Shown here piece by piece: positions 38,290 through 54,700 of a stretch of 58,876 bases of DNA. The position numbers and the translations under genes are program-made. The first letter of the stretch is position 1; each line of letters starts with the position of its first letter. The notes under the pieces are model-generated. The model had not been told where the DNA came from. It was given only the letters and a program-made list of their open reading frames with translations, and searched no databases. Origin of the DNA: Chitinivibrionales bacterium (GTDB lineage: Bacteria > Fibrobacterota > Chitinivibrionia > Chitinivibrionales > WJKA01); assembly GCA_014728215.1 (NCBI GenBank), contig WJLZ01000140.1:1-58876 (forward strand), in the 5' to 3' direction.

Positions 38290-38302
38290 ATGAAGAAAAG
38301 GA

Positions 38303-38365
38303 GTGGTGGAGTGATGGAATAGTGGAGTGATGGGGTTACACTACTCCAATACTCCAACACTCCAC
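38303..38365. repeat. GTGGAGTGATGG repeats forming an imperfect inverted repeat
   Basis: Direct GTGGAGTG-type units occur at about 38305-38315 and 38322-38333; the second is mirrored by CCAACACTCCAC at 38354-38365 with one mismatch, forming a hairpin-capable inverted repeat of 12 bp with a 20-base loop. The same GGAGTGATGG word occurs in the gene-free stretch at 33716-33774, so it is a dispersed intergenic repeat. Confidence 0.6.
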
Positions 38366-38456: not shown

Positions 38457-41012
38457 ATGAAAAAACATTCTCTTCTGCAGGTATTCATTCTTGTTCTTGT
38501 CGTTACAATTGGTGCAGCCGACTATGGAAACCTTCACAACCTGCTGATCAAGTTCTATGGGTATCAGCGTTCGGGCATCCAGGGAAATCCACACAATCCT
38601 TTTTACGATCGGTCCCCTTATCCGCATAGTGGCGATAATTACAATGGAACAGATCTTTCCGGTGGATGGTATGATGCCGGCGATTATGTAAAATTCGGGC
38701 TGACTACCGGCTGGAGTGCCTATTGCCTTCTGAAAGGGTACGATGTCTTCCCCCGGGGCTATGATGACAACGATTCTTGGGATTATTCGGGAAATCCTGA
38801 CGGCATTCCCGATATCCTGGGTGAAGTCAAATTTGCTACTGATTATCTGATTAAGGCGGTAATTTCGGAGAATACCATTGTCACCGATGTGGGCAATGCC
38901 TTTCAGGACCATCAGCAGTGGGTGAGTGGCTATCAGAGTACCGCTGCCCGCACCGTCTATACCAATACCGGAGCGGACATAGCCGGTCTCTATGCTGCTG
39001 CGCTTGCGTTGATGTCAAATCTTTACAAAGAACATGATGCTTCCTATGCGCAGCAATGCCTGGACAAGGCAAAGAGCGCCTTTACATTCGGCCTCAGGAA
39101 TAATAAACTGTCCGAACAGCAGAGAGATCCCACACTGGGGGTGTTTTACGAGAACAACACCTGGAAAGACAAAATGGCGTGCGGCGCGATAGAGTTGTAC
39201 CGGGTCACTCAGGATGAATTCTATCTCGACTGGGCGAAAGTGCTCCAGGCTGAGGTGCCCTCGCATTATTATGTCATGGGAACCATGAATGCCGGCGACC
39301 TCTCCGCATTCGAGTTGTGGCGTCAGGGAGAGACCGGATTTACCAGCTCATGGATGACCGATGTCAATCTTGCACTTAATCGTGTTGTTACCGAAAGCAA
39401 TGCATCGGATTGTATCAAAGGTGCGTTTATCAATTCCGACTGGGGCGTTTGCCGTGATGCCGCCAATGCCGCATTTTCAGCCGCACTGGCATACATGGTA
39501 AAGGGAGACAGCCGGTACAAAGATTTCGCATTCCAGCAACTCAACTGGGTGGCCGGCATGTCGCCTTTTAACAAATCCTATGTTGTGGGCTCTAACGGCG
39601 GTCCCACTAACCCGCATCATCGGAATGCGAGCACACTCGGTATACAGGTTGACGGCGGTATTGTTTCGGGCCCGTCACCAAACGGCAGTTTCGATCCGAA
39701 TAAGCCGGAAAATTCGAGCTGGTCTTTCACCGACAGCCGGGATATATATAAAAACACCGAAGTGGCAATCGACTATAATGCCGGTGCGATTGGTGCGCTT
39801 GCGTTCATGCGGGATTATCTGAATCCTCCCGAAGACCTGGTCCGCATAGCAGAAGGTCTTCGTGGCACACCCGATCCGGCCGATCTCAATACGGGAAGTG
39901 TGAGCATTACCTGCAAACTCGAAAAGAGCATTTCCTGGAAAGTCGTCCTGACCGGCCGCAACAGCGGTGCGAAAAAATCCTATACCGGCACAGGATCATC
40001 GATATCACTTACCTGGGCGGGGGAGAGCGACAACGGTACCTTTGCTGCAGGAGAGTATGTCGATATTATTCTCGATATTTCCGGGATTGCACCGTACCAT
40101 CTCAGCCTTGCCCGGGGATCATTCTTTCTTTCCGCAACAAAAAAAGAGCCATTCAAGGCGACCGATATCCTTGTCGATGATTTCAATGACGGCGATATTA
40201 CCAATAAATTCGAAGGGACCTGGTCTGCATTCTCCGACAAAAGCGACGGCGGTTCTTCATACACCTATCCCGCAACATTGGGAGCGACATCCTTTACCGA
40301 CAATGGAGAAAGCGGTACCAAAGCCATCGTAGTACGCCTTATTGGTAAAGACGGCGCTGATCATCCACACGCAGGAATAAAATCAACATTCAACCCGGCC
40401 GGTACGGCAATCAGCCTCGGCTCGGCAAAGAGTATCGTATTTGATGTCCGCTTATCCTCAGACAGCGGTACGATCTGGGTAGAGCTTGAACAGCCCACGG
40501 TCACCGATCAGGCCTGGTATGCGCATAAATTAAAGCTCGCATCGAGCAACTGGACCCGTATCCGCCTCCCTCTGGTCGCATTCGAGCAGCACCCCTGGAA
40601 AAGCTCATCGATTCCGCTCGATATTTCATCGGTCAGCGCAATTCGATTCACTTACTATGGTACCAGTAACCTTCAAATCCTGCTCGATAACATTCGAATC
40701 GAAGATCTTGATATCGGCGGCGCACCGGTACGGGTCAAGCAGGTGGCTTTTGGCACTCTCGGTATTTCCGATGTCGAAATAAACACGTCAACACTCTCAT
40801 ACCGGATAAGCTCACCAGTGAAGAGCGGTAATCACCGTATTCAACTTTTCGGTTTGAACGGAAGAATTTATTTAAACCGGAACATGGAATCGCCCGGCGT
40901 TTCAGGGATCGTTCAAATCGGTGATATCACCCTCCCCAAAGGGATCTATTTCCTGCGATACGCTTTTGAAAACAGCGATTTTTCAGGTGATGCCATGATT
41001 TGTGTTCAGTAG
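38457..41012 (+). CDS. GH9 endoglucanase with CBM11-like domain and sorting tail
   Basis: 851 residues with a signal peptide ending near IGAA. The GH9 domain (~22-455) shows GGWYDAGDYVKF with catalytic-base Asp73/Asp76, NPHHRNA (385-391), and NTEVAIDYNAG with catalytic acid Glu435. There is no N-terminal CelD-type Ig domain. GH9 enzymes hydrolyse beta-1,4-glucans with inversion, usually as endo or processive endoglucanases. A short Ig-like segment (~460-565) links to a CBM11/CIA30-like domain (~570-755, ILVDDFNDGDITNKF to LQILLDNIRIED), followed by a Por-type tail (IQLFGLNGRIYLN; LPKGIYFLRYAF). The ribosome site before the ATG at 38457 is weak. Confidence 0.93.
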   Translation: MKKHSLLQVFILVLVVTIGAADYGNLHNLLIKFYGYQRSGIQGNPHNPFYDRSPYPHSGDNYNGTDLSGGWYDAGDYVKFGLTTGWSAYCLLKGYDVFPRGYDDNDSWDYSGNPDGIPDILGEVKFATDYLIKAVISENTIVTDVGNAFQDHQQWVSGYQSTAARTVYTNTGADIAGLYAAALALMSNLYKEHDASYAQQCLDKAKSAFTFGLRNNKLSEQQRDPTLGVFYENNTWKDKMACGAIELYRVTQDEFYLDWAKVLQAEVPSHYYVMGTMNAGDLSAFELWRQGETGFTSSWMTDVNLALNRVVTESNASDCIKGAFINSDWGVCRDAANAAFSAALAYMVKGDSRYKDFAFQQLNWVAGMSPFNKSYVVGSNGGPTNPHHRNASTLGIQVDGGIVSGPSPNGSFDPNKPENSSWSFTDSRDIYKNTEVAIDYNAGAIGALAFMRDYLNPPEDLVRIAEGLRGTPDPADLNTGSVSITCKLEKSISWKVVLTGRNSGAKKSYTGTGSSISLTWAGESDNGTFAAGEYVDIILDISGIAPYHLSLARGSFFLSATKKEPFKATDILVDDFNDGDITNKFEGTWSAFSDKSDGGSSYTYPATLGATSFTDNGESGTKAIVVRLIGKDGADHPHAGIKSTFNPAGTAISLGSAKSIVFDVRLSSDSGTIWVELEQPTVTDQAWYAHKLKLASSNWTRIRLPLVAFEQHPWKSSSIPLDISSVSAIRFTYYGTSNLQILLDNIRIEDLDIGGAPVRVKQVAFGTLGISDVEINTSTLSYRISSPVKSGNHRIQLFGLNGRIYLNRNMESPGVSGIVQIGDITLPKGIYFLRYAFENSDFSGDAMICVQ

Positions 41013-41050: not shown

Positions 41051-41132
41051 TGTGGAAGGGGTTTCCACCCCTTAAACCCCATTAGGAAAATGCTTTTTGA
41101 TAGGTTATGCCGATTAAAATCGGCATAGGAAG
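41051..41132 (+). repeat. Two-hairpin intergenic element, copy A
   Basis: Hairpin 1 pairs AAGGGGT (41056-41062) with ACCCCTT (41067-41073) over a TTCC loop; hairpin 2 pairs TATGCCGAT (41106-41114) with ATCGGCATA (41119-41127) over TAAA. Between them lies a linker containing TAGGAAAATGCTT. A second copy in the opposite orientation lies at 49857-49938. The stems differ by compensating changes while the linker and loops are kept. Confidence 0.7.
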
Positions 41133-41388
41133 AGGCCCGACACGAAGTTTACTACCTGCAAAGCAGCAGCGGTTCCGTATCCCGCACAACTGCCGGCCGG
41201 ATTCGAGAAATTCACGCTCTTCAACCCTCGGAGAGGGGTGGCATTTGCCCATTTCAATAGTACGCAAAGCTGGAGCATCATTTGTAACGCTCATTTCGAC
41301 ACTTGGACACGCTCAGTGCAACGCAGGCTCAGTGTGTCACCGGGCGGCGCATCTTTCTTACCCGTAATCTTTCCCCATCCCCCTCATC
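41133..41388. repeat. Rest of the convergent gap with CTCAGTG repeats
   Basis: This part of the gap between a + strand and a - strand GH9 gene has no gene. At 41296-41341 TTCGACAC and two CTCAGTG words separated by CAACGCAGG match the dispersed CACTTCGA...CTCAGTG family, relating it to 33733-33800. Next to the GH9 stop, on the minus strand, the sequence TGAGGGGGATGGGGAAA repeats the post-stop motif of the GH8 gene. Confidence 0.5.
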
Positions 41389-44300
41389 TCATCGCATAAC
41401 CCCAATCTTCACCCGTTCCTTTTTCCCTTTACCTTCATCATCGGTAACGGTAATAATCGCAAGATAGGTGCCGCTTCCAACAGAGCGGTTCATAAGGTTC
41501 CTTCCGTTCCAGACATAATAGATGTTTGGAGAGTTCGATTCGGCGGAAAAGTCGCCCTCATTCACCCGGTTTCCCACCAAGTCGTAGATAACAATTTTTC
41601 CATCGAGCCTTACCCTGCTTTGTGTTTTTGCACGGGGAGTCACGGTAATAACAACGCCGTACCTGTATTCGGAGGTCAGGCTTTGAGGAATATGTCCCGG
41701 AACTTCACTGTTGCCGGGAGAAAAAGGATTCGGGGTGATCTGGATCACCAGTGAATAGGTCGATTGTACCGTTAACAGAGCCTGCCGGTTTTCGGCATGA
41801 CTCTGGCCGGCATTGCTACTGTCGGTAATTCCGGCGAGTGGATTGATTTGAATCGAATCATTATCCGATGGGTATTCGGTATCGATTATTTCTTTTACAA
41901 GGTATATCTGCTTCTCCGATAAGGTATTTGATGGCGGATCCAGGGAAAAACTGTAGGAATCGCCGTTTTTATCGGTGAGAGAGAAAGGTGAACCATAATT
42001 ACCGGGACGCACCGGCTCCGAGAACATAACCGTTAAGGTATCAGGATTTTCTTCACTATCCTGGGTAATGGTTCCCGGGGCATAGATTGCGGCGATAATG
42101 ACCGGCGCTGCACTGTCGTTTACCGCCGAGAGAATCGTATCGCCGGGAAACTGCTCAAACAGCGCTGCTACATTCATTGTCCCTGCAGTTGCGATCCCGG
42201 AAGAATCCGCTGCTGCTCCCCTAATATCGACCACAAGGATCGTACTGTCATCAGAGAGATCGATTATCCTTGAACCGCCGATCCATGGGCCCGAAGAGCC
42301 TTCCCATTCAAATTTCAAGGAGATTTTTCCGGGATTAACCGCTTTCTCAAAGGAAAGTATCGCCCGATCGATAATACCGTCACCATTGTTATCCTGATAC
42401 CAGGCCGATATAATTGACGGCGCCAGGAGCTTTTCCTCCACCGGAACCGCGCGGTTGTCACGATGCGCCTTGTTGCCGGGAAGATCGGTGATGAATCCTG
42501 AAAAATTGATAAGCAGTGAGTCGCCGTTACGCGGGGCGATCCCCGAGACAGTCATCGCTGTAACAGTAAAGTTTTGACCCTTTGTATCAGTGGCTTCAGC
42601 TTTTTCAACAGAAACAGGATAGAGTGAGCCGTTTCGCTTGAGCAGCAACGCCGTATCCTTGACTGAATACTCGGTAAGGGGTTCGGAAAAAGTGAGCGTG
42701 AAAACAAAAGAACCGCTCTCGGCTTTTTGCACCAGCGCCTTATCGGTCAGCACCGGTCCGGCACGATCGGCCATGGGAAAAGCATGCTCCCGAGCTGTTC
42801 CATGATAAGAAGACCAGGAGCGGCCTTCACCGGCACTCACCGAAGAAAATCCTGTGCGGGATGCTGCGAAGGGAGGATCAATCGCTATGTGCGTATTTTT
42901 ATCATCAGTAGTGAGAGCATTACCGTCAATAACTCTCTGTTCGCCCGGTGAGGGAAACCAGAGGAGCAGGGAGTCGGGAAGCTCATCCAGGGTCATGGAC
43001 CATGAGACGGATGCACTGTCGACCGCACCATCGCCATCGCTGTCGAAATAGGCGCCTGCCTGTGGTATGGGAAAGGATGCCCTGGTATAGAGAAACACCC
43101 GGGCGGTATCTGATGGATCGGTGGGATCCTGATAAAAAACAGTCAGCCAGTCGCCTTCATTCATAGTCATGCGCACCTCGCCTGTTGTATGCGATGAATT
43201 CACAATATCGACCGCGGATTGATTACGGAATGTGCCGCTTGTCGGCCCGGTCTCTACAAGCTTAACCATGAGTGTATCGCCGCTGCCGGGATTACGAACC
43301 AGTACCTCGAGCGTATCGATTGCATCCTTATCCGCATCGCCGTTCTTATCGGTGACAATGATATAAAAATCGGTCGTATCGATTGCAACCGTATCGGCGA
43401 GGGGAGAATCCGCAGTGTCGCGGAGGATCATGGTCGAGGGATGCTGTTCTGCGCCCGAAAATTCTACGAAAAAGTGATGATTCGAAAAGTCACAGCCGTA
43501 GCACCCGGTACAGAGCGAATCGGGGCCTCCGAATATGGTGATATCGACCACATTGGGTCCGTTTTCCACCGGCACCGGGATCGAAAGGTCCCATCGGTCA
43601 TTTCCGGCATTATAGGTGGCAATGTCGCTGATATTGTCGACCCGTCCGCCGTTTACCCAGATATCATTGATAACGCCGTCACCGGTAATCGTGGCCCATC
43701 CTTTAACATCCACAACCGGGACCGTCCGTTCAACAGCAACATACTCCTCTGAAGGGTTATTGAGCGGTGAGGTGATTTGTGCGGTCAGTTCGTAGTGGGT
43801 CTTTTTGGTTTTCCGTTCCTGTTCCGATGGCGAATATCCCCAGACATACTCACCTTTGCGGTAGACACAAATATACTGATTGACTTCCTGCGCCCAGTAA
43901 TCGCTGTCGACATCCTGCTTGCTCCGCTCCGGCACACCGCCATAATCCACGGGATCGCCATCGGCGCGGCTGTGGGGGCCGAAACTCCAGTCGTTATCGG
44001 TGATCTGATGTTCTGGCGGCTGATTCATGAGATCTTCATGGGGAGGCCAGGGACTTCGACGGTCAAAGATAACATCAAGCCGAATCCGGGAACCCGATTT
44101 CATCTCCACGCCGGTCAGGGGAATAGACAGATACCAGGCATAGGCTTCGGTTGACGGATCATACGTATCATCGAGTTTTACCGGTTTCCGGCTCGATATA
44201 GCCGTGCGAATCGTGGTGTTTTCGGAAAATTCCTGCTGAAACCCGGCTTCATCGTACATAATCCCGATATCGAGCCGGGCCGCAAGATCGTTCTCAAAAC

Positions 44301-47139
44301 CGTCCTTTGCCCGGAAATAGAGCCTGATATCCAGTGAATCGTACGCTTTGACATCCTGGTTGACAATGTTCATTCCCAGCGCGGGCATGTCACTCCATTC
44401 GTAGCGTATGGCCCGGATATCGAATTCCACATGTTCCACCGGTGTGCGGAAATGATAATAATTGCCGTTGTTATCATCGGTATGGCCGCCCGATTCCACA
44501 TAAAACCAGTAGTCGGTCTGCTCCTGCAGTCCGCCGATTTTTACATAATGAAATTCGGTCGGATGCCCGGCCACATCGCCTTCATGTACCGTCGACGGCG
44601 GCTTGGAGGACCCGTACACGACGTTGCTCCCTGAGGCTGCGCCCGGTGTGTACCAGAATATTTCTGCCGAGTCGGCAGTTACCCGGCATACCTTTACCGT
44701 ATGGATCGATTCAACATTCGTGCAATTCTGCGGCGTTGTGAAAGTGAAATACGATTCATTGCCGTCGGTATCGGTCTGCCTGATCACCGATTCATTGCCG
44801 AGAACATCATTGACAAGTACATCGAATGCATAGACTGTTCCTTTTAAGAGGCCCGAAAGCGTAATGGTATGCATCATCCCCGAAGAATCGGAAGTTATCC
44901 GGGTTGTTGACAATGATGATTCTTCTTTATAGCGTACCGTTGCGGTGCCGTAGCGCGACTGACGGACCTCGATAATAGCCGTGTCGCATCCCACATAGAC
45001 AATTCGCACTGTTGCCGACGGCGGCCCGGCGGGGTCATCGAGCGCAAGGCCCATCATGGGAAGAAAAATCGCAGTAACGGCATCGATAGAGACTTCGGTA
45101 TGATAATAGCCGTCCATACCTCCCATGAACTCATCATACACCGAGGTCATGGTTGGATTGTATCCGGCCGAGAGTGCCCCCACAGGGGGGCGATACTCGT
45201 AAAACGCGCCGGGGGTGTTCTGGAGTTCGGGGTTGGCTGCCCGATGGTGCGGATGGTTCAGATTTTTATGGCCTGTCCCCACAACCATGCTTATATCCCA
45301 GGGATTCATGCCCAGCATGAAATGCACCTGCTTGAGCAGCAGGTTTTTGACTTCATCGGTTTTCCAGTCGGTCGAGGCCGGTGAGTTGGGGAGATCCTTA
45401 CCTTCAATTTCGCTTGCGATATCCACGTAACAGAATAACTCGGTGATATTCCCCGACTGGTAGCGATTCGGCATCCAGTTATTATCCTGAATGTGCATCC
45501 ATCCCCAGAGTGGATCGCTCTTGACAGTTGAGCCTTTCCAGTTGAAATCGGAACGGGGAAGCTCGATTGTATAGCTGCCGGCACCGACATCGGCAATGTC
45601 GACAATGAGGCAGTAGAGGATATCTTCGATAAGACCGAGTCGATCCTTCTCGGTAAGGCCGTATGATTGAGCTGTGGACGCATCTTTGAGGATAAGCCGG
45701 TAGAGTCCCCAGAGCGCATAGACTTCGAGGTTGTCCCAGCAGGTATTGGCGAACGTTTTCTGCGGGCCTGGATTTTCTTTAACAAACCATCCGCCGTCAA
45801 AACCGCCTTTTTTATAGTATGCGGAATCTCCTTTGCTGCCCACCGAACGATCGTAGAGGAGATCGTTTTTATAGGTGGTTTCACCGGTAGCCCACCAGAG
45901 CCCGAGAGCCGCCAGCGCGAGTTCATCATAGGTCATTCCTCCCCCGTGCATGGCCGCGCTGTATGACGCAGCGGGGTTTGCTTTGCCGTAATCGTAGAGC
46001 TTTTTGGCGACCTCGATACATTGTGCAGCATAGATTGCATCGTAGGGTTCATAAAGCTTGCCCACAAATGCACATCCGGCAGCCATCGAGCCGGCGGTAT
46101 TGCCGCCAAGGCCGTGAGCAGTCGGACGGGGCGGGCCGCCGCGGCCGGGAGGGACGCCGTCCTGATACTCGGGACGGCCCCACCATTGATGGTCCGGGCC
46201 GTAACCACCGATTTCGGTCTGCATGGAGGCCACGCTTCCACCCGCGGCATCATAGGAGTTCAGCACAAAATCGGTCCCGATTTTTGCTTCATATAGAACA
46301 TCGGGGATGCCATCGGTATTCACCGTGTGCGCATGATTTTTTCCATACCGGTCGGTGTCCCGGTCGGGCAACGCGGCTGCACAGAGACCCAGCACCGCCA
46401 TAGTGTAGCCCATCGACTGGGGAACCTTGATATGATCGCCGGCATCATGCCAGCCACCGGTCACCGCATCCTTGAGATGACACCCCGGATGAAACCACGA
46501 GCCGGTAGGACCGCACCGGGCTACTCCGTAAAATTTGAGCAGAGCATCTTTTACCATGCCGTACACCGATCGATGGATTATAAAAGGTACGGAGATATCA
46601 TCGCCCACCTTGATTTTATAGGAACCTTCAGGAAGATCGGGGATATGGCCTTCGTACACAGTCCCGGAGATTTCATCGCTTTGAATGCTGTATTTCACCG
46701 CACCGCCCGATATCAGTTGCGCCTTATGGTAACACTGTATTTCAAGGGAGCCCGAAGAGCTTTGACCGGTAGTGGTGAGTGTTCCTGAAGCAACTTTTTC
46801 ATCGGTAGCAGCATCGAGCACATCAAAAGAAGCCCCGCTGCCGCCGACATAATAGAACAGTTTTTCATCATCGGGACGGTACCCCGCCTGATTGACCAAT
46901 ACCCGGCCGATTTGTAAGGTGATTGAATCACGGCTGAGCTGCGGCGTTGTGTCCGGAAGCGGATTGGCGATCGGTGCGTAGGGAAACGGGTCGGCTGTGC
47001 AGGGAAATGCAGCGATAAACGATGCAATCAGTGCCACGATAGCTGCATATTTGCCGATACGAGGAATAGGGGAATAACACCCAAAAGGCGAAAGATGTAT
47101 AAAATCCCGCCGGATCTCTTTTACGCAAAGGGCTGTCAT
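41389..47139 (-). CDS. Very large GH9 glycosidase with CelD-N, FN3 and C-terminal module
   Basis: 1,916 residues; the ATG at 47139 opens a long n-region before a hydrophobic signal (YAAIVALIASFIAAF) cleaved near TADP. A CelD-type N-terminal Ig domain (~75-190, LVNQAGYRPDDEK) precedes the GH9 barrel (~195-705) with GGWHDAGDHIKV (Asp232/Asp235), HPHHRAA (629-635) and YHTEVSIDAV (Glu682). Two FN3-like domains follow, then a region of Asp-rich beta domains. From ~1360 to the end it shares a module with the beta-helix protein: YFDSDGDGAVDSASV, YQDNNGDGIIDRAILSF, and the tail SVGSGTYLAIITV...VKIGVMR. At least three times the length of an ordinary GH9 enzyme. No strong ribosome site is seen before the start. 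Confidence 0.9.
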   Translation of the reverse strand: MTALCVKEIRRDFIHLSPFGCYSPIPRIGKYAAIVALIASFIAAFPCTADPFPYAPIANPLPDTTPQLSRDSITLQIGRVLVNQAGYRPDDEKLFYYVGGSGASFDVLDAATDEKVASGTLTTTGQSSSGSLEIQCYHKAQLISGGAVKYSIQSDEISGTVYEGHIPDLPEGSYKIKVGDDISVPFIIHRSVYGMVKDALLKFYGVARCGPTGSWFHPGCHLKDAVTGGWHDAGDHIKVPQSMGYTMAVLGLCAAALPDRDTDRYGKNHAHTVNTDGIPDVLYEAKIGTDFVLNSYDAAGGSVASMQTEIGGYGPDHQWWGRPEYQDGVPPGRGGPPRPTAHGLGGNTAGSMAAGCAFVGKLYEPYDAIYAAQCIEVAKKLYDYGKANPAASYSAAMHGGGMTYDELALAALGLWWATGETTYKNDLLYDRSVGSKGDSAYYKKGGFDGGWFVKENPGPQKTFANTCWDNLEVYALWGLYRLILKDASTAQSYGLTEKDRLGLIEDILYCLIVDIADVGAGSYTIELPRSDFNWKGSTVKSDPLWGWMHIQDNNWMPNRYQSGNITELFCYVDIASEIEGKDLPNSPASTDWKTDEVKNLLLKQVHFMLGMNPWDISMVVGTGHKNLNHPHHRAANPELQNTPGAFYEYRPPVGALSAGYNPTMTSVYDEFMGGMDGYYHTEVSIDAVTAIFLPMMGLALDDPAGPPSATVRIVYVGCDTAIIEVRQSRYGTATVRYKEESSLSTTRITSDSSGMMHTITLSGLLKGTVYAFDVLVNDVLGNESVIRQTDTDGNESYFTFTTPQNCTNVESIHTVKVCRVTADSAEIFWYTPGAASGSNVVYGSSKPPSTVHEGDVAGHPTEFHYVKIGGLQEQTDYWFYVESGGHTDDNNGNYYHFRTPVEHVEFDIRAIRYEWSDMPALGMNIVNQDVKAYDSLDIRLYFRAKDGFENDLAARLDIGIMYDEAGFQQEFSENTTIRTAISSRKPVKLDDTYDPSTEAYAWYLSIPLTGVEMKSGSRIRLDVIFDRRSPWPPHEDLMNQPPEHQITDNDWSFGPHSRADGDPVDYGGVPERSKQDVDSDYWAQEVNQYICVYRKGEYVWGYSPSEQERKTKKTHYELTAQITSPLNNPSEEYVAVERTVPVVDVKGWATITGDGVINDIWVNGGRVDNISDIATYNAGNDRWDLSIPVPVENGPNVVDITIFGGPDSLCTGCYGCDFSNHHFFVEFSGAEQHPSTMILRDTADSPLADTVAIDTTDFYIIVTDKNGDADKDAIDTLEVLVRNPGSGDTLMVKLVETGPTSGTFRNQSAVDIVNSSHTTGEVRMTMNEGDWLTVFYQDPTDPSDTARVFLYTRASFPIPQAGAYFDSDGDGAVDSASVSWSMTLDELPDSLLLWFPSPGEQRVIDGNALTTDDKNTHIAIDPPFAASRTGFSSVSAGEGRSWSSYHGTAREHAFPMADRAGPVLTDKALVQKAESGSFVFTLTFSEPLTEYSVKDTALLLKRNGSLYPVSVEKAEATDTKGQNFTVTAMTVSGIAPRNGDSLLINFSGFITDLPGNKAHRDNRAVPVEEKLLAPSIISAWYQDNNGDGIIDRAILSFEKAVNPGKISLKFEWEGSSGPWIGGSRIIDLSDDSTILVVDIRGAAADSSGIATAGTMNVAALFEQFPGDTILSAVNDSAAPVIIAAIYAPGTITQDSEENPDTLTVMFSEPVRPGNYGSPFSLTDKNGDSYSFSLDPPSNTLSEKQIYLVKEIIDTEYPSDNDSIQINPLAGITDSSNAGQSHAENRQALLTVQSTYSLVIQITPNPFSPGNSEVPGHIPQSLTSEYRYGVVITVTPRAKTQSRVRLDGKIVIYDLVGNRVNEGDFSAESNSPNIYYVWNGRNLMNRSVGSGTYLAIITVTDDEGKGKKERVKIGVMR

Positions 47140-47365
47140 ATATGGTTAGTGGAAAGGGGAGCGGAAGGGGTTCAGGAGAAGAATGAACGCACGAGATTAC
47201 GAGCGCAGGAACATGCCGGTAATGCCGGCATGCGTGGGCTGAGTGGAAAGCATTGAGCGATTTTTTATTGCAGTTGAGATGAAGGTTATAGTTTAAAAAC
47301 CATTATGTGCAAAAAACGGTGTTTTCCTTGGGGTTTTCAGGCTCGTAGTTTCTAAGGTAAAAATC
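47140..47365. other. Intergenic region with an ATGCCGG hairpin
   Basis: This stretch precedes the largest GH9 gene (minus strand) and follows the transposase 3' end. CATGCCGG (47212-47219) pairs with CCGGCATG (47225-47232) over a five-base loop, resembling hairpin 2 of the two-hairpin elements, but hairpin 1 and the linker are absent. A GH9 promoter should lie here but no clear boxes were found. Confidence 0.4.
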
Positions 47366-47375
47366 AAATGTTTTT

Positions 47376-48848
47376 TCATTTTTTTTCAACAACCGCCGCC
47401 ATTGCCTGTGCGAGTATCTCCCCGACACTCTGCGGCATGGCATTGATTTGCGCATGATCTGTACAAATATTACTTTTAATATGCGTGAGAGAAGGAATGA
47501 CCCCGCTCTTGTGAACACCGTTCACTTGGGGCTCCTTTCTCTCCTTTTCTCTCCTTGTTTTTGTCTGTCTCCTGGATATAGGTGCTTTTTCGTCCCTGCT
47601 CTGATAGCGCCGGTGCTTGTCCTCCTTCTTTTTGCTTGTAGATATCCTCTTAATCTTTCTGTTTTTTTCATCAACCACAGGATCAAACGGCTTATTGGTT
47701 TTAAGCATTCCATAGATAATTCGCAAGATTTTATGCATACAGACACCAAGCGCTGCCATTCGAGGCATACCGCTATCAATGCATCGATTATACAGCTCTT
47801 TTATAACAGGATTATACTGAGTTGCCGAAAATGAAACCATGAAAAGAACTGCCCGCGGCCGAGCATGACCTTGCTTGCTGATGTGATAGCCCCAGCTTCC
47901 ATCGCCACTTTGTTTATAAGCCGGATTCAGTCCAAAATAGGAAACAAGATGCTTCACGGTTGGGAAGCGTGCGACCGAGACTATATATATCAGCAAACCC
48001 AATGCGGAATAAGTACCTATTCCCGTAAAACTGCTGAGCAAATCAACCTCTGGCAAGTTACAAGTTTTTTCCAAATGATGTTTGTGTCTTTCTATCGATT
48101 CTGTAAGATTCTTTATCTGAATCACCGTTTCTCGCACCATAAACTCACTTGTTTCATCGATATGCGAGGCAACGGATTTTTTTGTTTCTTCGATAATTGT
48201 CTGGGCTTTGGCAATTGTCACCGATGGAATGCTCGTCAGTTTTTTTATCCGGGCATTAGCAAGCTTGCTGGCTGTGGGATAAGCGCTCAGAACCTCAAAT
48301 ACCCATTGAGGAACTCCATGCTTACAGTAACGGATAAGTTCTGGATGCGACAAATACATAAGAGATTCCAGATTGTTCAGAAGTTGAGAGCGCTGTTTTA
48401 CGAGCAACTGTGTTGTATTCCATTGTCTTCGCATGCTCTGAAAAGCCATATCCTCATTATAGCACACTTTTTCGGGATAAGAGATCATATACGAGGCGAT
48501 GTTGTGAGCTGCAATCGGATCGGTAATGTTGCTTTTCATGGTAGCCTCATGATGTTTTTTGACCCCCAACGGATTAAGCCGGGCAACCTTCAAAGGATAT
48601 ACCTCATGAAGTCTTACCAAAAGACTGTACCAGTTGTTTTCATATCCACCGGTACTCTCTACACCAAAATTGATCGTTGCACCTTTATGGCGCCGGAAAA
48701 AACTACTCAGAAATTCGGACAAAGCACCATGCCCTTCAAATGTATCGTCGAGTTGAAACGGCGCCTCGACGATTCGTTTTTGTTTGTCCAGGATTACAAA
48801 GTCCGCATATCCTTTGCTGACGTCGCACCCCATGAAATAATCTGTCAT
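47376..48848 (-). CDS. IS110-family transposase with altered DxxD and basic C-terminal tail
   Basis: 490 residues from the ATG at 48848, which has AAGGAG five bases upstream (a GTG at 48854 is less likely). The N-terminal RuvC-like DEDD domain shows GCDVSK (Asp9), GVESTGG (Glu64) and NITDPIAAHNIA (Asp110); the position of the usual fourth acidic residue, three beyond Asp110, is Ala113. The C-terminal IS116/IS110/IS902 domain has FTGIGTYSALGLL, FGLNPAYKQSG with the expected nucleophile Ser314, and a GxxR-like GHARPRAVL. Residues ~395-490 form a Lys/Arg-rich extension, making it longer than typical members of about 320-420 residues. IS110 recombinases use a bridge RNA to pair donor and target DNA. 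Confidence 0.92.
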   Translation of the reverse strand: MTDYFMGCDVSKGYADFVILDKQKRIVEAPFQLDDTFEGHGALSEFLSSFFRRHKGATINFGVESTGGYENNWYSLLVRLHEVYPLKVARLNPLGVKKHHEATMKSNITDPIAAHNIASYMISYPEKVCYNEDMAFQSMRRQWNTTQLLVKQRSQLLNNLESLMYLSHPELIRYCKHGVPQWVFEVLSAYPTASKLANARIKKLTSIPSVTIAKAQTIIEETKKSVASHIDETSEFMVRETVIQIKNLTESIERHKHHLEKTCNLPEVDLLSSFTGIGTYSALGLLIYIVSVARFPTVKHLVSYFGLNPAYKQSGDGSWGYHISKQGHARPRAVLFMVSFSATQYNPVIKELYNRCIDSGMPRMAALGVCMHKILRIIYGMLKTNKPFDPVVDEKNRKIKRISTSKKKEDKHRRYQSRDEKAPISRRQTKTRREKERKEPQVNGVHKSGVIPSLTHIKSNICTDHAQINAMPQSVGEILAQAMAAVVEKK

Positions 48849-48899
48849 GCGCACTCCTTGAATGAAGTAAAACAGTACCAGTCAACGGCGTAAAAAAAT

Positions 48900-49050
48900 G
48901 GACAGGCAAAATCACCCTTGTGTAATGCGGTCTCTCGGACCAAGTTTCTAACCGATCTTAGTCTGGCCGGAAGGGAGAAACTACGAGACGGGTTCAGGAC
49001 CCAAGAGCCGAGCCTCCTCTTCACGCCAAGCTTAATATGCTTTATCACTG
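48900..49050 (-). ncRNA. Candidate bridge RNA of the IS110 element
   Basis: Upstream of the transposase and in the same direction, about 140 bases can fold into a series of hairpins (minus-strand reading): AAGAG...CTCTT around a GC-rich loop; GGGT-cctga-ACCC; a larger stem-loop AGTTTCT...AGAAACT whose 26-base interior includes CCG...CGG; and GGTC-cgaga-GACC. Stem plus internal-loop arrangements in this position are characteristic of IS110 bridge RNAs. The guide loops cannot be matched to donor and target because the element ends are uncertain. Limits are approximate. Confidence 0.45.
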
Positions 49051-49096
49051 TCCAGGAATGCATGGGTTTTTTGAATGCTATTATTTTATACAGAGT

Positions 49097-49445
49097 TATC
49101 AACATTTCAACACTTATCCACAAAGAAGAAAGAAAAAGTAGCAAAAAGAAAGAAGAAATTACCAATACCATTTATATATATCACAAAAGAATTAATATAC
49201 AAGAGCCGGTATGTCTGTAGAAAAAACAAGAGAAAAACCCTCCTTGAATGATAAATATATTCGAATGAAATTGGAATACTATCATAATCATTAATATTTA
49301 GATCAAGAGGGCACTTAGATTTAGCAGAAATTATAGAGGTGCTTATGATAAAAAATGAAATAAAATGTTTTTTCATGTTCTTTTGCTTTCCCGCCGGCTA
49401 TAATATATTCTCTCTACCATTCAGCATAAAAAAACTTGTGCATAA
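49097..49445. promoter_or_regulatory. DnaA-box-like cluster flanking an AT-rich block
   Basis: TTATCCACA at 49115-49123 is an exact consensus DnaA box; TTATCAACA at 49097-49105 differs from it at one base; TGTGCATAA at 49437-49445 is an exact box (TTATGCACA) on the other strand. The sequence between is strongly AT-rich. Two exact boxes within 330 bases are not expected often by chance, but AT-richness raises the odds. No replication gene is nearby. Confidence 0.35.
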
Positions 49446-49620
49446 CTCCACATAGTCTGCAACCCATACCCTTCATTTACAGTAACCTCAAAGTGCCGGA
49501 TATATTCTTATGGGAACATAGTGTGAATATTTCCGTGATTTCTTGCGAGCTGTTGAATTAAAATGAGTTGCGTAGGCCCGACCCGGATTATCTTTTCGAG
49601 CAAAATGCAAAAAGAATAAT

Positions 49621-49680
49621 GTACGCTCAGCATCGAATTTGTACGCTCAGCATCAAATATTAACGCTCAAGTGAGAATTG
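49621..49680 (+). repeat. Three tandem 20-bp repeats
   Basis: Units start at 49621, 49641 and 49661 with an exact 20-base period. The first two share GTACGCTCAGCATC and AAT near their ends (17 of 20 identical); the third keeps ACGCTCA and AAT but is diverged elsewhere. There is no spacer between units, so it is not a CRISPR. It is iteron-like in length and arrangement. Confidence 0.65.
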
Positions 49681-49699
49681 CAAACGCATTAGATGGGGT

Positions 49700-49723
49700 T
49701 TCGAACGGTTCGAACGGGTTCGG
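49700..49723 (+). repeat. Tandem TTCGAACGG repeat
   Basis: TTCGAACGG occurs twice back to back (49700-49708 and 49709-49717), followed by GTTCGG, a partial third unit shifted by one base. It lies 20 bases after the 20-bp tandem repeats. Function unknown. Confidence 0.5.
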
Positions 49724-49856
49724 ACCACGTTTAACTCACTGAAAGCAAACAAATAACAACGAAAAACCTCAAAAATGCAACCTCTCCGAGTTAGAAGAAA
49801 GAAAACCCTGTCCTGTCGCAGAGGCTATTTACAAGCAAAAACATGGGGCACAATTT

Positions 49857-49938
49857 CTTCCTATGCCGGTCTGCCGGCATAGCATATAATCAAGCATTTT
49901 CCTACCAGGGTTTAAGGGCATGGAATGCCCTTCCATAT
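49857..49938 (-). repeat. Two-hairpin intergenic element, copy B
   Basis: Opposite in orientation to copy A at 41051-41132. In the minus-strand reading hairpin 1 is AAGGGCA-TTCCA-TGCCCTT (49932-49914) and hairpin 2 is TATGCCGG-CAGA-CCGGCATA (49881-49862), with AGGAAAATGCTT between them. Stem bases that differ from copy A are paired in both copies. Confidence 0.7.
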
Positions 49939-50044: not shown

Positions 50045-51724
50045 TCAGTGGTTGCTGATGTGCATTTTCCTGATCCCTTTTTTCATTCCATCAGGCAGAA
50101 GGATTATCGGGGTTGACGGGAGCCCGTGAATGTTTTTGTATATGGCTGGTACCATTTTACCGTTGATCGAGAACGCCCGCAAGCACTGATTATTCCTGAT
50201 ACGAAAAGATAATCCGTTTTCCCGAGATTCGGGGTAAGAACCATCGAGCACAACCGCACTTTCGCCGGTGTCAACCGGCGCAAGTTTCGAGATAATGTAT
50301 CCCAGTGCGCCCACCAGCCCGGAATTGTAATCGATACCGCCTTCGGTGTAGCTGTACTGATTGATATCATCGACAAATGATGATGCATCCAGCGTACCGC
50401 CAACCATCAAGCCGAACTGTTTGTTACGATCGGGGATCGTGAGCGAATTTTTAGCTCCGTCGGAAACATTGTTGTCGTTGAGAAAGACATTCCGGTGGTG
50501 AGGATGCTGCGGAGATTTATTGCCGAACCCGACCACAAAGGATTGTCCGGCAGCGTTTTCGCCGAGGATATAGTCGATCGTTGCATAGATGAAATTATCG
50601 ATATCGCTGTTCTCTTGCAGTTTGTCGTTGAGTGCGCAGGCGAATGCCTGGCCGGCGCTGTACCTGAGAATGCCCCATGATGCTCCGGTTGCGCCGACGC
50701 CCTCAGCGGTGACATTCGATTTATACCGGTTGACTATCTGATTGAGAAGGTTTTTCTTTCCGGCAACGCCGATCTTTGCCAGGTTGTAAACAGCGAGATC
50801 ATCGTTATTGGCGTAGCAAAGTGACCAGTTATGATCGTTAACCGAACCCGATTTACCGATGGCATCGTCGAGGTACTGCTGCTCGCCGGTAGTCCAGTAC
50901 AGCTCGGTGGTCATGATAACGAAATCATCTTCCCACCGCGCGTTTGCGGTATAAAAGCTGCCGTCACCGGCGCCCACTGTTCCCGGATGGGCTTTTGCAT
51001 ATTCGTAAGCGTGAAGCGCATGCCGGAGGCATTGATCCGCATACGGGGAGTTATATTTTTTATACACCCTGGCCATCAGGGCAAGGGTTGCACCGCAGAA
51101 GGAAGCCATGGATGCCCCACCGGGATTTTTATACACAGTCCGCGGCTGACCGCCGTCACTGGAAGAGAGTGTTGCCATATTGACAGAGGTCACCCATTTC
51201 TTATGATCCTTGGCGCCTTCACCAACCTGGTAATAGAATGTCGAATTGTCACGTGCGCACCTGATGAAATAATCGGTGGCATACTTGACCTCATCGAGAA
51301 TATCAGGAATACCGTTGGGACTGCCCCTGCCGCCTTCCCAGGAGAAATCACCCGATGACTGATAGCCGTGATAGTCAAACGAGTAATAATCACCGAATCC
51401 TTCCGGAAACTCGGCATATGCTTTCAGCAGTACATAGGCGCTGTAGAACTCGGTTTGACCGAACTTCACATGATCGCCGCAGTCATGCCACCCGCCTGCA
51501 AGGCTGTAGCTTCCGTCGGCATCTTCGGTGAAATCGACCCCCGCACCATGATCCATGATCAGCCAGTTCGGGCCATCGCCCGAGCGCTGACCGCCGTACA
51601 TGCGGGTGGTCATCCAGTGTGCTTTCTGATACTCTTCTACCGAGAGTTTCCCCGCTCCCTGCAGAACAGGGGCGAGAGACATAATTCCACAGAAAAGAAT
51701 GTTTGCCATGTTGCGAAATTTCAA
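50045..51724 (-). CDS. GH9 glycosidase with DCGD motif
   Basis: 559 residues from a TTG at 51724, chosen because AAAGGG lies eight bases upstream and a signal peptide follows (KFRNMANILFCGIMSLAPVLQG); starting at the in-frame 51850 would overlap the preceding gene by over 100 bases, and the ATG at 51709 lacks a ribosome site. The GH9 domain fills almost the whole protein: GGWHDCGDHVKF (Asp81/Asp84; Cys in place of Ala is a known bacterial variant), HPHHRNV (around 408-411) and YTEGGIDYNSG (catalytic acid Glu461). The last ~60 residues resemble a shortened sorting tail (LRAFSINGKMV). It follows the GH51-like gene by 19 bases, so the two probably share a transcript. Confidence 0.92.
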   Translation of the reverse strand: MKFRNMANILFCGIMSLAPVLQGAGKLSVEEYQKAHWMTTRMYGGQRSGDGPNWLIMDHGAGVDFTEDADGSYSLAGGWHDCGDHVKFGQTEFYSAYVLLKAYAEFPEGFGDYYSFDYHGYQSSGDFSWEGGRGSPNGIPDILDEVKYATDYFIRCARDNSTFYYQVGEGAKDHKKWVTSVNMATLSSSDGGQPRTVYKNPGGASMASFCGATLALMARVYKKYNSPYADQCLRHALHAYEYAKAHPGTVGAGDGSFYTANARWEDDFVIMTTELYWTTGEQQYLDDAIGKSGSVNDHNWSLCYANNDDLAVYNLAKIGVAGKKNLLNQIVNRYKSNVTAEGVGATGASWGILRYSAGQAFACALNDKLQENSDIDNFIYATIDYILGENAAGQSFVVGFGNKSPQHPHHRNVFLNDNNVSDGAKNSLTIPDRNKQFGLMVGGTLDASSFVDDINQYSYTEGGIDYNSGLVGALGYIISKLAPVDTGESAVVLDGSYPESRENGLSFRIRNNQCLRAFSINGKMVPAIYKNIHGLPSTPIILLPDGMKKGIRKMHISNH

Positions 51725-51743
51725 ATCGGTATCCCTTTCTTTT

Positions 51744-54700
51744 TTATCGTGCGCCGCCATGAAGCAGCAAGAGTGTGGTGTGTTTGTTTCCGAGAGTAAT
51801 TCTGCACGCGTACATGCCGGAAGCCAGACCGTTTTTTTTATCCCAGACATACCGTGCCTGACCGGGTTCGAGCTTTCCGGAGTTGTGAATGCATGTGCCC
51901 AGCATATCGAAAATCTCTATCCGTGGACGGGCATTGTCGGTGTTTATCCAGGTGAATTCCAGCGCTCCGTTGGGAAAACGACGGTGGAACAGCCCCTGAC
52001 GACGATGCAAAACACCATTCGCTTTCAGGGGCATGATGATCGAGTCGCCCGAATCGCTGAGAAAGACGACATTGTCGATCGCAAGGAACCCGTCTCCTTC
52101 TCCCACAGCCCTGAATTCGAGGTCGTAAATATCACCCGGCCCAATGCTTGCCACGGCCTCGCCCCATCCGTACTGACTTAAATCCTGCCAGGCAAAAGTC
52201 ATGGTTTTCCACATACCGCCCGTGTTGTCGAGAGGCATATTGAACTCATCGTAGTCGGTTACTTTCGTGCTGTTGACATGAAGGAAAAATGATTCTGCGC
52301 CCCCCGAATGGCTCGATGCATAATCGAACCGCATACCGGTGATTGTCGGTTGCATTGTATCCATGAAAAGTGTGTCGAGCGGGAGGTTTAATTTCGCAAA
52401 GTTGGAATATCCCAGATCCGCAGGCTGCACAACTGTAAAATCTGCCCTGAGGCTCAGGTTGTCGCCGGATCGACGGTCGATGGAAAGTGCTATTGATGAT
52501 TCATTCTTGCCGTGAGCATAGGAACGCCATCTGGCTGCATCCGGAAGACTGCTGACCAGATTGCTGTCCTGGAAATTGTCAATAAGAAGGACTGGACGCA
52601 AGCGGCCGGAAACGGAAAAGGGGAGACTGTCGATCGTTGATTCTCCAGATTCCGTCATCGCCTGTACATAGAGCACATGCTCACCCTTTGCAAAGAGATC
52701 CGGAGCCAATGCGAACATAAAGCTTTCCGAGGGACCGTCAAAGCCGCCGTCAACCGAAACCAGCGCAGAAAAGGAATCCTTCGAGTCGACACTGTAGCCG
52801 ATTCGGGTAACAACCGAACTGTTCCCGGTTGCCGTCCCCCATACTTTCAATGAATCACCACTCCGTAGACGTCCGGGCTCCGAACCCAGATGCACTATAT
52901 CGGGCTTTGTATCCGATGAAATACCGTTATGGTATGCGACAACCGCAACGGATACCGGAGGAAGCATTACCGCCTGAATCGAATCGAGGCTTATCCGTCT
53001 GGAAACCGGTCCGCAATTGGGTGCGGCATAGGCTCTTTTGTCAATGCCGTTCCAAGAAAACAGCTCCTCATTCCATTGATACCAGTCTGCTGAGGTATAG
53101 TTGGTTCCTTCAATCGATATAGTTACTGCAAGCGTATCGTTGCCGGTGTTGCACAAAAGAGTCCGGAACTGGTCTGCAGTGTGTATTCCGTAGGCCCGGA
53201 GACCGCTGTTGCGCTCGTAATTTCCGAGTACCGGCGCCTGACCGAAATCGCTGCCGATCCAGAGCGCGTTGCTCATATAACTCGACCACCAGGCAGCCGA
53301 GGGGGCGTGAGTAAATGATGAATAGACTGTCTCGCCGACAGGATTGAACAGGCTGAGACTTCCATGGGTGCCGTCAGGCCCCGAGCCGCCGCCTTCGTAG
53401 GAATCCCAGATCACGGTCATTCCCCGGTAGCCGAATTTTTCGACAAACCCGCCGAACATATTGGCCAGACATACCGTATTGACCGGTTCCATGAGAATAC
53501 CTGCCATCTGTACCGACATGTTGTATTCACTCATGAACACCAGCGTGCTTTCGGGCTGCAGAAGATACGCATCGATCATGTCTAAAAGCGTGTCGCTCTT
53601 TTCATAAACATAATCGGATTTTTCGAGCATCGATGACTCGTTTGGCCGTGATGAAAACCAGTAGGGGTAACAGTGAAAATCGACGCCATCGCAATACGAA
53701 ACGCCATCGGTTTTTTCGATTGCTCCCACATATTCCAGAAAAGTATGCATCCATGACTTGAGATTGAAATCGCCGCTTGCCTGTCGGTTGAAATCCGCGC
53801 CGGCTAAAACCGGGCCGAAAACTTTTATGGTCGGATCGACCGCTTTCATGGCTTTGCTGAATGCGATAAACTTTTCGGCATACATCGCGGCGGTTACCGG
53901 ACCACCTTCTTCCCAGTCGCCATCCATCTCATTACCCACCTGCCAGTAGCGAATATCATAGTCCTTGACTTTATTGGCATACCGAACCCATCGGGCAGCC
54001 TCCTGCGGGGTGCCGGTGCTGTAATTGACACAAATGACCGGTATGGCGCCATACTCGAAACTTTCAACATAGTCCATGAACGATTCAAAATCCCAGTCAA
54101 CCCATCCACCGGCAAAATCTTCGCGCATAATATTCGCAGGATGAGCCGAGAGGGCAATAACTTTTGTCTGATCGCCGGATTCCTTCCGGTAGCTTTTGAT
54201 ATTATTCGAGATCTGTTCGCCCCCGCTGTAAAGATAGACTTCCCTGACCTGAATATCCTTTGCACCCGAGGCACTCAAGGATGATTGTATCCGGAGATAG
54301 CTCGTGCGCCGTCCGGTATCGAGAGAGCAGGCGAACACCGTATCGGTATTGCCGGTCACTTCCTTTACCGTTTTCCACATGTTGCCGTTGGTCTGATGCG
54401 GTCCCGGATAGAAGGTCCCGGTGCCGGACCAGACGTCGATCGCAAAATCGACTCCATGGCGCTCTCCCCAGACAACAACAATCGAATCGATCTCATATGA
54501 TTTGTCCAGTTGAAGGTAGAACCATGGACTGGTTTGGGTGACATAAGGATCGCTCCACCACATTGTAGCAGTGTCACCGTCGGTGATATGTGATGACCCT
54601 TCAAAACCATAATGGTATTTCGAGGTTCCCCGGTGCTTTGTGTGGACCACGAATCCGGGGGTGTATTCGCCGGTATCGGAGATCCAGACGCCGATGCTGT

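Follow-up and report, generated by a model that had tools for sequence, protein, structure and literature searches.

Two copies of a repeat between glycoside hydrolase genes

The window analysed here is a whole contig of 58,876 nucleotides (C140) from a genome of 5.0 Mb in 229 contigs, labelled G000. Three genes of glycoside hydrolase family 9 (positions 38457-41012, 41389-47139 and 50045-51850) flank the two copies of a short, non-coding repeat, one on each strand, of which the parts are listed in Table 1. The window also carries a gene for an IS110-family RNA-guided transposase (NF033542; 47376-48854, minus strand), the start of which is separated from copy 2 by approximately 1 kb of apparently non-coding DNA. 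This gene is the sole Transposase_20 match in the genome, and IS110 was rejected as the source of the approximately 55 copies of the repeat because only one such element is present, beside copy 2. Other short dispersed repeats, common to the same-genus genome G001 with the surrounding DNA unmatched, were observed at 38293-38365, 41295-41351 and 49713-49766.

Table 1. The two copies of the repeat and their parts, in window coordinates
Feature	Position	Strand	Basis
Copy 1: conserved module (hairpin 1, tail and linker) plus hairpin 2	41053-41127	+	
Copy 1, TGG, sharp left boundary of the family	41053-41055	+	pairwise homology between copies
Copy 1, hairpin 1, purine-rich 5' arm AAGGGGT	41056-41062	+	
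Copy 1, hairpin 1, 3' arm ACCCCTT	41067-41073	+	
Copy 1, pyrimidine tail CCCC after AAA linker, candidate third strand	41077-41080	+	three-way covariation
Copy 1, conserved single-stranded linker GGAAAATGC	41085-41093	+	near-invariant in alignment A4
Copy 1, hairpin 2, TATGCCGAT-TAAA-ATCGGCATA (subfamilies differ in sequence)	41106-41127	+	
Copy 2: layout as in copy 1	49861-49935	-	
Copy 2, hairpin 1, 5' arm AAGGGCAT	49925-49932	-	
Copy 2, hairpin 1, 3' arm ATGCCCTT	49914-49921	-	
Copy 2, pyrimidine tail CCCT, candidate third strand	49907-49910	-	
Copy 2, linker GGAAAATGC	49894-49902	-	
Copy 2, hairpin 2, TATGCCGG-CAGA-CCGGCATA	49862-49881	-	

The original prediction had located two copies of a two-hairpin element at these places, and both are real. 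They share 78% identity (E = 8e-9, comparison within the window), and no third match comparable to them was found in the self-comparison of the window. The predicted paired changes between the copies are correct both for stem 1 (AAGGGGT/ACCCCTT versus AAGGGCA/TGCCCTT) and for hairpin 2 (TATGCCGAT/ATCGGCATA versus TATGCCGG/CCGGCATA), as is the linker AGGAAAATGCTT common to both copies. The loops had also been described as shared; this fails for hairpin 2, with TAAA in copy 1 and CAGA in copy 2. A predicted alternative pairing of TGGAA with TTCCA occurs in the two window copies and is absent from all 39 listed copies of genomes G003, G004 and G010. Judged from the sequences compared, this pairing is not a feature of the family and fails outside close subfamilies.

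Family size, spread and anatomy

Within its own genome, copy 1 gave 41 BLAST matches at E <= 10, including 24 at E < 0.01. The covariance model R1, which was built from 18 copies, gave 71 matches at E <= 10, 55 at E <= 0.03 and 53 at E < 0.01, and also detected relatives in the genomes of nine other members of the order Chitinivibrionales. A second model, R2, representing the left module alone and built from 52 sequences of several genomes, matched 67 of 168 Fibrobacterota genomes, although many of the Fibrobacter matches were single and weak. The further copies that the original prediction proposed to collect are thus abundant, with approximately 55 matches in the 5 Mb genome of origin and dozens in other Chitinivibrionales, and the prediction is not refuted by a lack of them. 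Fibrobacter carries a shorter form, in which the match spans hairpin 1 and the tail only, and its core TAGGGGCTCCGCCCCTAAAACCCCGTAAGG agrees letter for letter with Chitinivibrionales copies along almost its entire length. Searches of plasmids, phages and viral contigs gave no match to the family. Scattered pattern matches outside Fibrobacterota were mostly devoid of the hairpin, look like chance and were set aside. We conclude that this is a genuine phylum-wide structured repeat of Fibrobacterota, which is dispersed, non-coding and intergenic.

Comparison of the copies side by side gave the following order of parts: TGG, the 5' and 3' arms of a stem of approximately 7-8 pairs, separated by a loop of approximately 3-7 bases, then three bases and the tail. 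In Chitinivibrionales, the tail is followed by a short variable stretch, the linker GGAAAATGC, approximately ten A/T-rich bases and then, usually, hairpin 2. The consensus of the hairpin 1 5' arm is (A/T)A(G/A)GG(G/C/A)(C/T/A) and that of the tail is (C/T)CC(C/G..). Hairpin 2 takes the forms CTATGCCG..CGGCATAG, CTATGCGC..GCGCATAG, CATGCCGG..CCGGCATG or CCCAACCCCCC..TTGGGG in the genome of origin and differs again in other genomes, being C-rich in G003, G004 and G010. Many copies in genome G014 have no separate hairpin 2, and a second, inverted copy lies 63-116 bases off, the arms of such inverted pairs continuing as ATTATAGCTAAAAGA / TCTTTTAGCTATAAT. The left boundary is sharp, with homology starting at most approximately 5 bases from TGG in most pairs of copies, while the right boundary is variable, mostly at +50 to +150 and at most about +300.

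Several loci have a more complex build. Composite repeats, 460 bases or longer and with a long shared tail, were observed at L131 1058-1584 (G000:C90), L130 and L132; they contain two direct copies of the element approximately 250 bases apart, and several stop at contig ends. A long imperfect palindrome, superficially like attC, lies at L131 1795-1960 (CATAATTC...GAATTATG within larger arms). At L088 of G014, a hairpin 2 (GTAGAGACGCACGGCCGTGCGTCTCTAC) resembling a REP of the GTAG type is joined to the left module. In Fibrobacter (L219 and other loci), the repeat is a component of larger intergenic mosaics, with a second pyrimidine tract (ACCCCCTCGCC) located 5' of the hairpin.

Genomic placement

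Based on simple ORF calling, 120 of the 132 copies fall outside any ORF of at least 75 codons. By the same calling, the left neighbour gene is on the same strand in 55 cases and on the opposite strand in 54, indicating no strand preference. No recurrent gene was found in a search of the genes adjoining the copies. Each of the 13 inverted pairs in G014 is made up of two different hairpin types (permutation p about 0.01); close inverted pairs are few in G000.

One orthologous copy, with an unusual insertion, occupies the same site in G000 and G001, which belong to the same genus. Identity was 87% over 109 bases of this copy, 70-80% over most of the flanking gene and 39% over the adjoining spacer. 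This conservation, above that of the spacer and of most of the neighbouring gene, indicates that the copy has been kept. In this orthologous copy (L043 1235-1343 and L078), kept in two species, approximately 26 extra bases replace the 3' arm, and the 5' arm is able to pair only with the tail. Apart from this copy, comparison with G001 revealed no empty sites, the flanks being so diverged that only dispersed repeats matched. At one Fibrobacter site, the element-bearing genomes differ downstream, while five genomes without the element retain the same next gene; this single case is suggestive of site instability.

Covariation of the stem and the tail

The original prediction inferred selection on structure from two copies, and the wider family supports it. 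In alignment A4 (52 sequences), 94.5% of the cells of the hairpin 1 stem are paired, and double changes occur in 5 of 7 pairs. Stem-1 covariation in this alignment was 0.377, above every shuffled control (0.127 +/- 0.017) and every slid control (<= 0.129), these controls removing relatedness only in part. In alignment A1, double changes occur in 5 of 13 pairs over both hairpins; for hairpin 2, 100% of the counted cells are paired and three pairs are doubly changed. Because the stem types are so diverse across genomes (AAGGGG, TAGGGG, AAAGGG, GGGC/GCCC, GGTG/CACC and GGAA/TTCC), a purely inherited pattern of covariation is unlikely.

The tail also varies with the stem. When positions were ranked by APC-corrected mutual information (76 rows, including one chance hit, L112, dropped later), four stem pairs came first, followed by tail position d4 with both members of pair 3. 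In 73 distinct copies, the tail was read parallel to the purine arm, and in the expected register 262 of 311 positions (84%) matched the code of tail C opposite G and tail T opposite A, compared with 54-189 matching positions (at most 61%) in the other registers tested. Permutation of the tails within genomes gave 231 +/- 4 matching positions and never reached the observed value. A larger set of 114 distinct modules, picked by the stem alone, gave the same association at pair 3: a G-C pair was accompanied by tail C in 76 of 80 modules and an A-T pair by tail T in 28 of 32, the remaining four having A and never C. The Fisher probability was 6e-24 overall, 6e-8 within G000, 2e-8 within G014, 0.025 within G003 and 0.012 within G004. 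Both states of pair 3 and tail were found in six separate backgrounds, defined by genome and neighbouring pairs. On a rough tree of these short sequences, from which the pair-3 and tail columns were excluded, the number of changes is 16 for pair 3, 22 for the tail base and 22 for the joint state; the tail therefore changed along with each of the 16 stem changes. Matched examples are AGGAA with TCCTT (L137 and L148) and AGGGA with TCCCT (L046); within G003, TAAGGCC with ATCCGG occurs alongside TAGGGCC with ACCCGG.

The number of consecutive triads is 3 in 61 copies, 4 in 32 and 5 in 5. Positions 4-5 are invariant and carry no covariation information, while at positions 6-7 the tail is simply complementary in parallel (tail G at C-G pairs, tail A at T-A pairs), which is not the usual triplex code. 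Antiparallel Watson-Crick pairing between the 5' arm and the tail was rejected as the source of the covariation, its fit being 62% compared with 84%, and pair 3 having no covariation with its would-be partner. Pairing of the loop with the tail as a pseudoknot, for instance CTGGC with GCCAG, is good in some copies without a common register.

The parallel C/T code corresponds to C+.G-C and T.A-T base triples of the pyrimidine motif, and on the complementary strand the same code reads as antiparallel G.G-C and A.A-T of the purine motif. From the aligned sequences we infer that the three-way covariation may reflect physical base triples. The repeated three-way compensatory changes make it plausible, though we put this forward tentatively, that a base-triple fold, beyond the hairpin, is under natural selection in this phylum-wide family of DNA repeats. 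If true, this would provide evidence from evolution for both the formation and the importance of short intrastrand triplexes in living bacteria. The repeat has an ordinary side, as another intergenic palindromic repeat family; the repeated co-variation of three strands is its unusual side.

Proposed explanation and alternatives

We propose, with a probability of roughly one half, that the G-rich hairpin with its C/T tail is a non-autonomous structured element that acts as DNA and adopts a short third-strand fold. Hairpin 1 would form when the DNA is single-stranded, during lagging-strand replication, repair or transcription, and the tail would then turn back onto the purine arm of the hairpin, supplying a short third strand. 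The proposed triads would be C+.G-C and T.A-T on the strand shown, and G.G-C and A.A-T on the other. The repeat would be copied by some trans-acting or replication-linked process. The level of action is most likely DNA, in such single-stranded episodes. Against a triplex stands its length, 3-5 consecutive triads being short for a stable one. Triads with C+ require protonation and the purine triads of the other strand do not; the latter are equally few.

The same fold might instead work as RNA. Base triples next to a hairpin are common in RNA, and a structured element at the 3' ends or in the spacers of mRNAs could serve, for example, in stability or processing. Among copies at most 60 bases from the left-hand gene, 42 face a 3' end and 25 a 5' end (p = 0.05), as such a role would favour, but over all copies the orientation is unbiased (55:54) and no downstream gene recurs. 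No Rfam match was obtained at the gathering score, and copy 1 had none at a permissive threshold either. A terminator or promoter role was set aside, copy 1 offering no evidence of it in the form of a promoter-like site or a T-run terminator. We regard an RNA-level function as unlikely, though still the strongest of the alternatives to a DNA-acting element.

Two further readings appear distinctly less probable. Firstly, the repeat may be a dispersed binding site for a DNA-binding protein that recognises the stem and the adjoining tail as one unit, so that both change together without a triple helix. The strong conservation of the GGAAAATGC linker is consistent with such a site, and the heterotypic types (AAGGGG, TAGGGG and AAAGGG) could match variants of the protein. 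However, protein reading alone would not yield a parallel complementary code, and several types coexist within one genome.

Secondly, and with a similarly low probability, the repeat may be an element of the REP/BIME or PATE type, moved by a Y1 transposase (RAYT or IS200/IS605) that reads the folded single strand. The hairpin layout, the multicopy intergenic spread and the joining of unlike units into inverted pairs, a trait of Y/Z BIMEs, resemble such elements, and Y1 matches were present in all 10 Chitinivibrionales genomes checked. The search for Y1 genes took in the genome of origin, nine relatives and another 12 genomes and revealed no associated REP-type transposase, which the original prediction had suggested looking for: nothing convincing lay at most 1.5 kb from the 38 Y1 loci whose flanks were scanned in the first two of these sets, and 8 of the other 12 genomes (all Fibrobacter, near-complete ones included) have the short form and no Y1 gene. 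The GTAG or CGTC tag is also absent, the foot of the hairpin being TGG(A/T)A.

Lastly, the copies could be inert relics of a MITE (miniature transposon) whose covariation arose when a few source elements were copied. This would account for the sharp left and variable right ends and for the subfamilies but is highly improbable, given that compensatory changes recur across several backgrounds, that the orthologous copy is conserved above most of the neighbouring gene and that there is no transposase neighbour. No transposase-bearing parent of the repeat was seen in flanks of a few kb.

Comparison with known systems

REP/BIME elements, which are defined by their tags and a RAYT partner (PMC3733652, PMC8266576), and REPINs are, like the Fibrobacterota repeat, palindromic intergenic repeats that occur singly or as inverted heterodimers with structured spacers. 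In contrast, the Fibrobacterota repeat has no GTAG/CGTC tag and no RAYT association, and its tail and linker, which lie beyond the palindrome, are conserved. MITEs and PATEs (derived from IS200/IS605) are likewise small non-coding repeats with terminal hairpins, whereas the subfamilies of the Fibrobacterota repeat have no common right end. Base-triple RNAs, such as the H-type pseudoknot riboswitches (e.g. SAM-V, PMC6061858), resemble it in placing a strand in the major groove of a helix; the Fibrobacterota repeat differs in that it does not occupy a regulatory position ahead of genes and has neither a ligand class nor an Rfam match.

The closest parallel is the intrastrand triplex motif, described in many bacteria (Holder et al. 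2015, PMC4666352; PIT elements, Hoyne et al. cited therein). The original prediction knew of no described family with this layout, which holds for Rfam but overlooks this published parallel in E. coli (PMC4666352). The E. coli motif TM_ECO is intergenic, without strand bias and without a transposase, and its close inverted pairs join type A with type B in 5/5 cases (PMC4666352). The Fibrobacterota repeat likewise consists of a short GC-rich hairpin and a third tract reached via a three-base connection, occurs in many intergenic copies without strand bias or an adjacent mobility gene, and forms heterotypic inverted pairs (13/13 in G014). As in the TM/PIT class, its three tracts are consecutive, and a parallel pyrimidine code in register is mirrored by a purine code on the other strand.

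The differences lie in order, length and diversity. TM_ECO has the order C-G-G (class II; C-C-G on the other strand), whereas the Fibrobacterota repeat has G-C-C (class IV; G-G-C, class I, on the other strand). The nearly invariant TM_ECO has 9 triads (PMC4666352), compared with 3-5 here. Unlike TM_ECO, the Fibrobacterota repeat has a conserved linker and a second hairpin and is diverse enough to exhibit three-way covariation. The ITxF criterion requires at least 6 triads and loops of 1-6 bases; the three-base loop of the Fibrobacterota repeat is within this range, but its triads are fewer than 6. The repeat therefore falls outside the published triplex class by the length cut-off, and looks like a shorter relative in kind.

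TM_ECO forms a stable triplex in vitro and was undetected by in vivo footprinting, and its sites are unusually variable (PMC4666352). The near-invariance of this best-studied triplex repeat leaves its sequence silent on the importance of the third strand, and footprinting in cells left the matter unsettled. The diversity of the Fibrobacterota family allows changes in the stem and the tail to be compared, so that selection on intrastrand triplexes becomes testable with simple mutants. Triplex-like repeats would thereby be extended to a phylum for which the papers we found contain no description of them.
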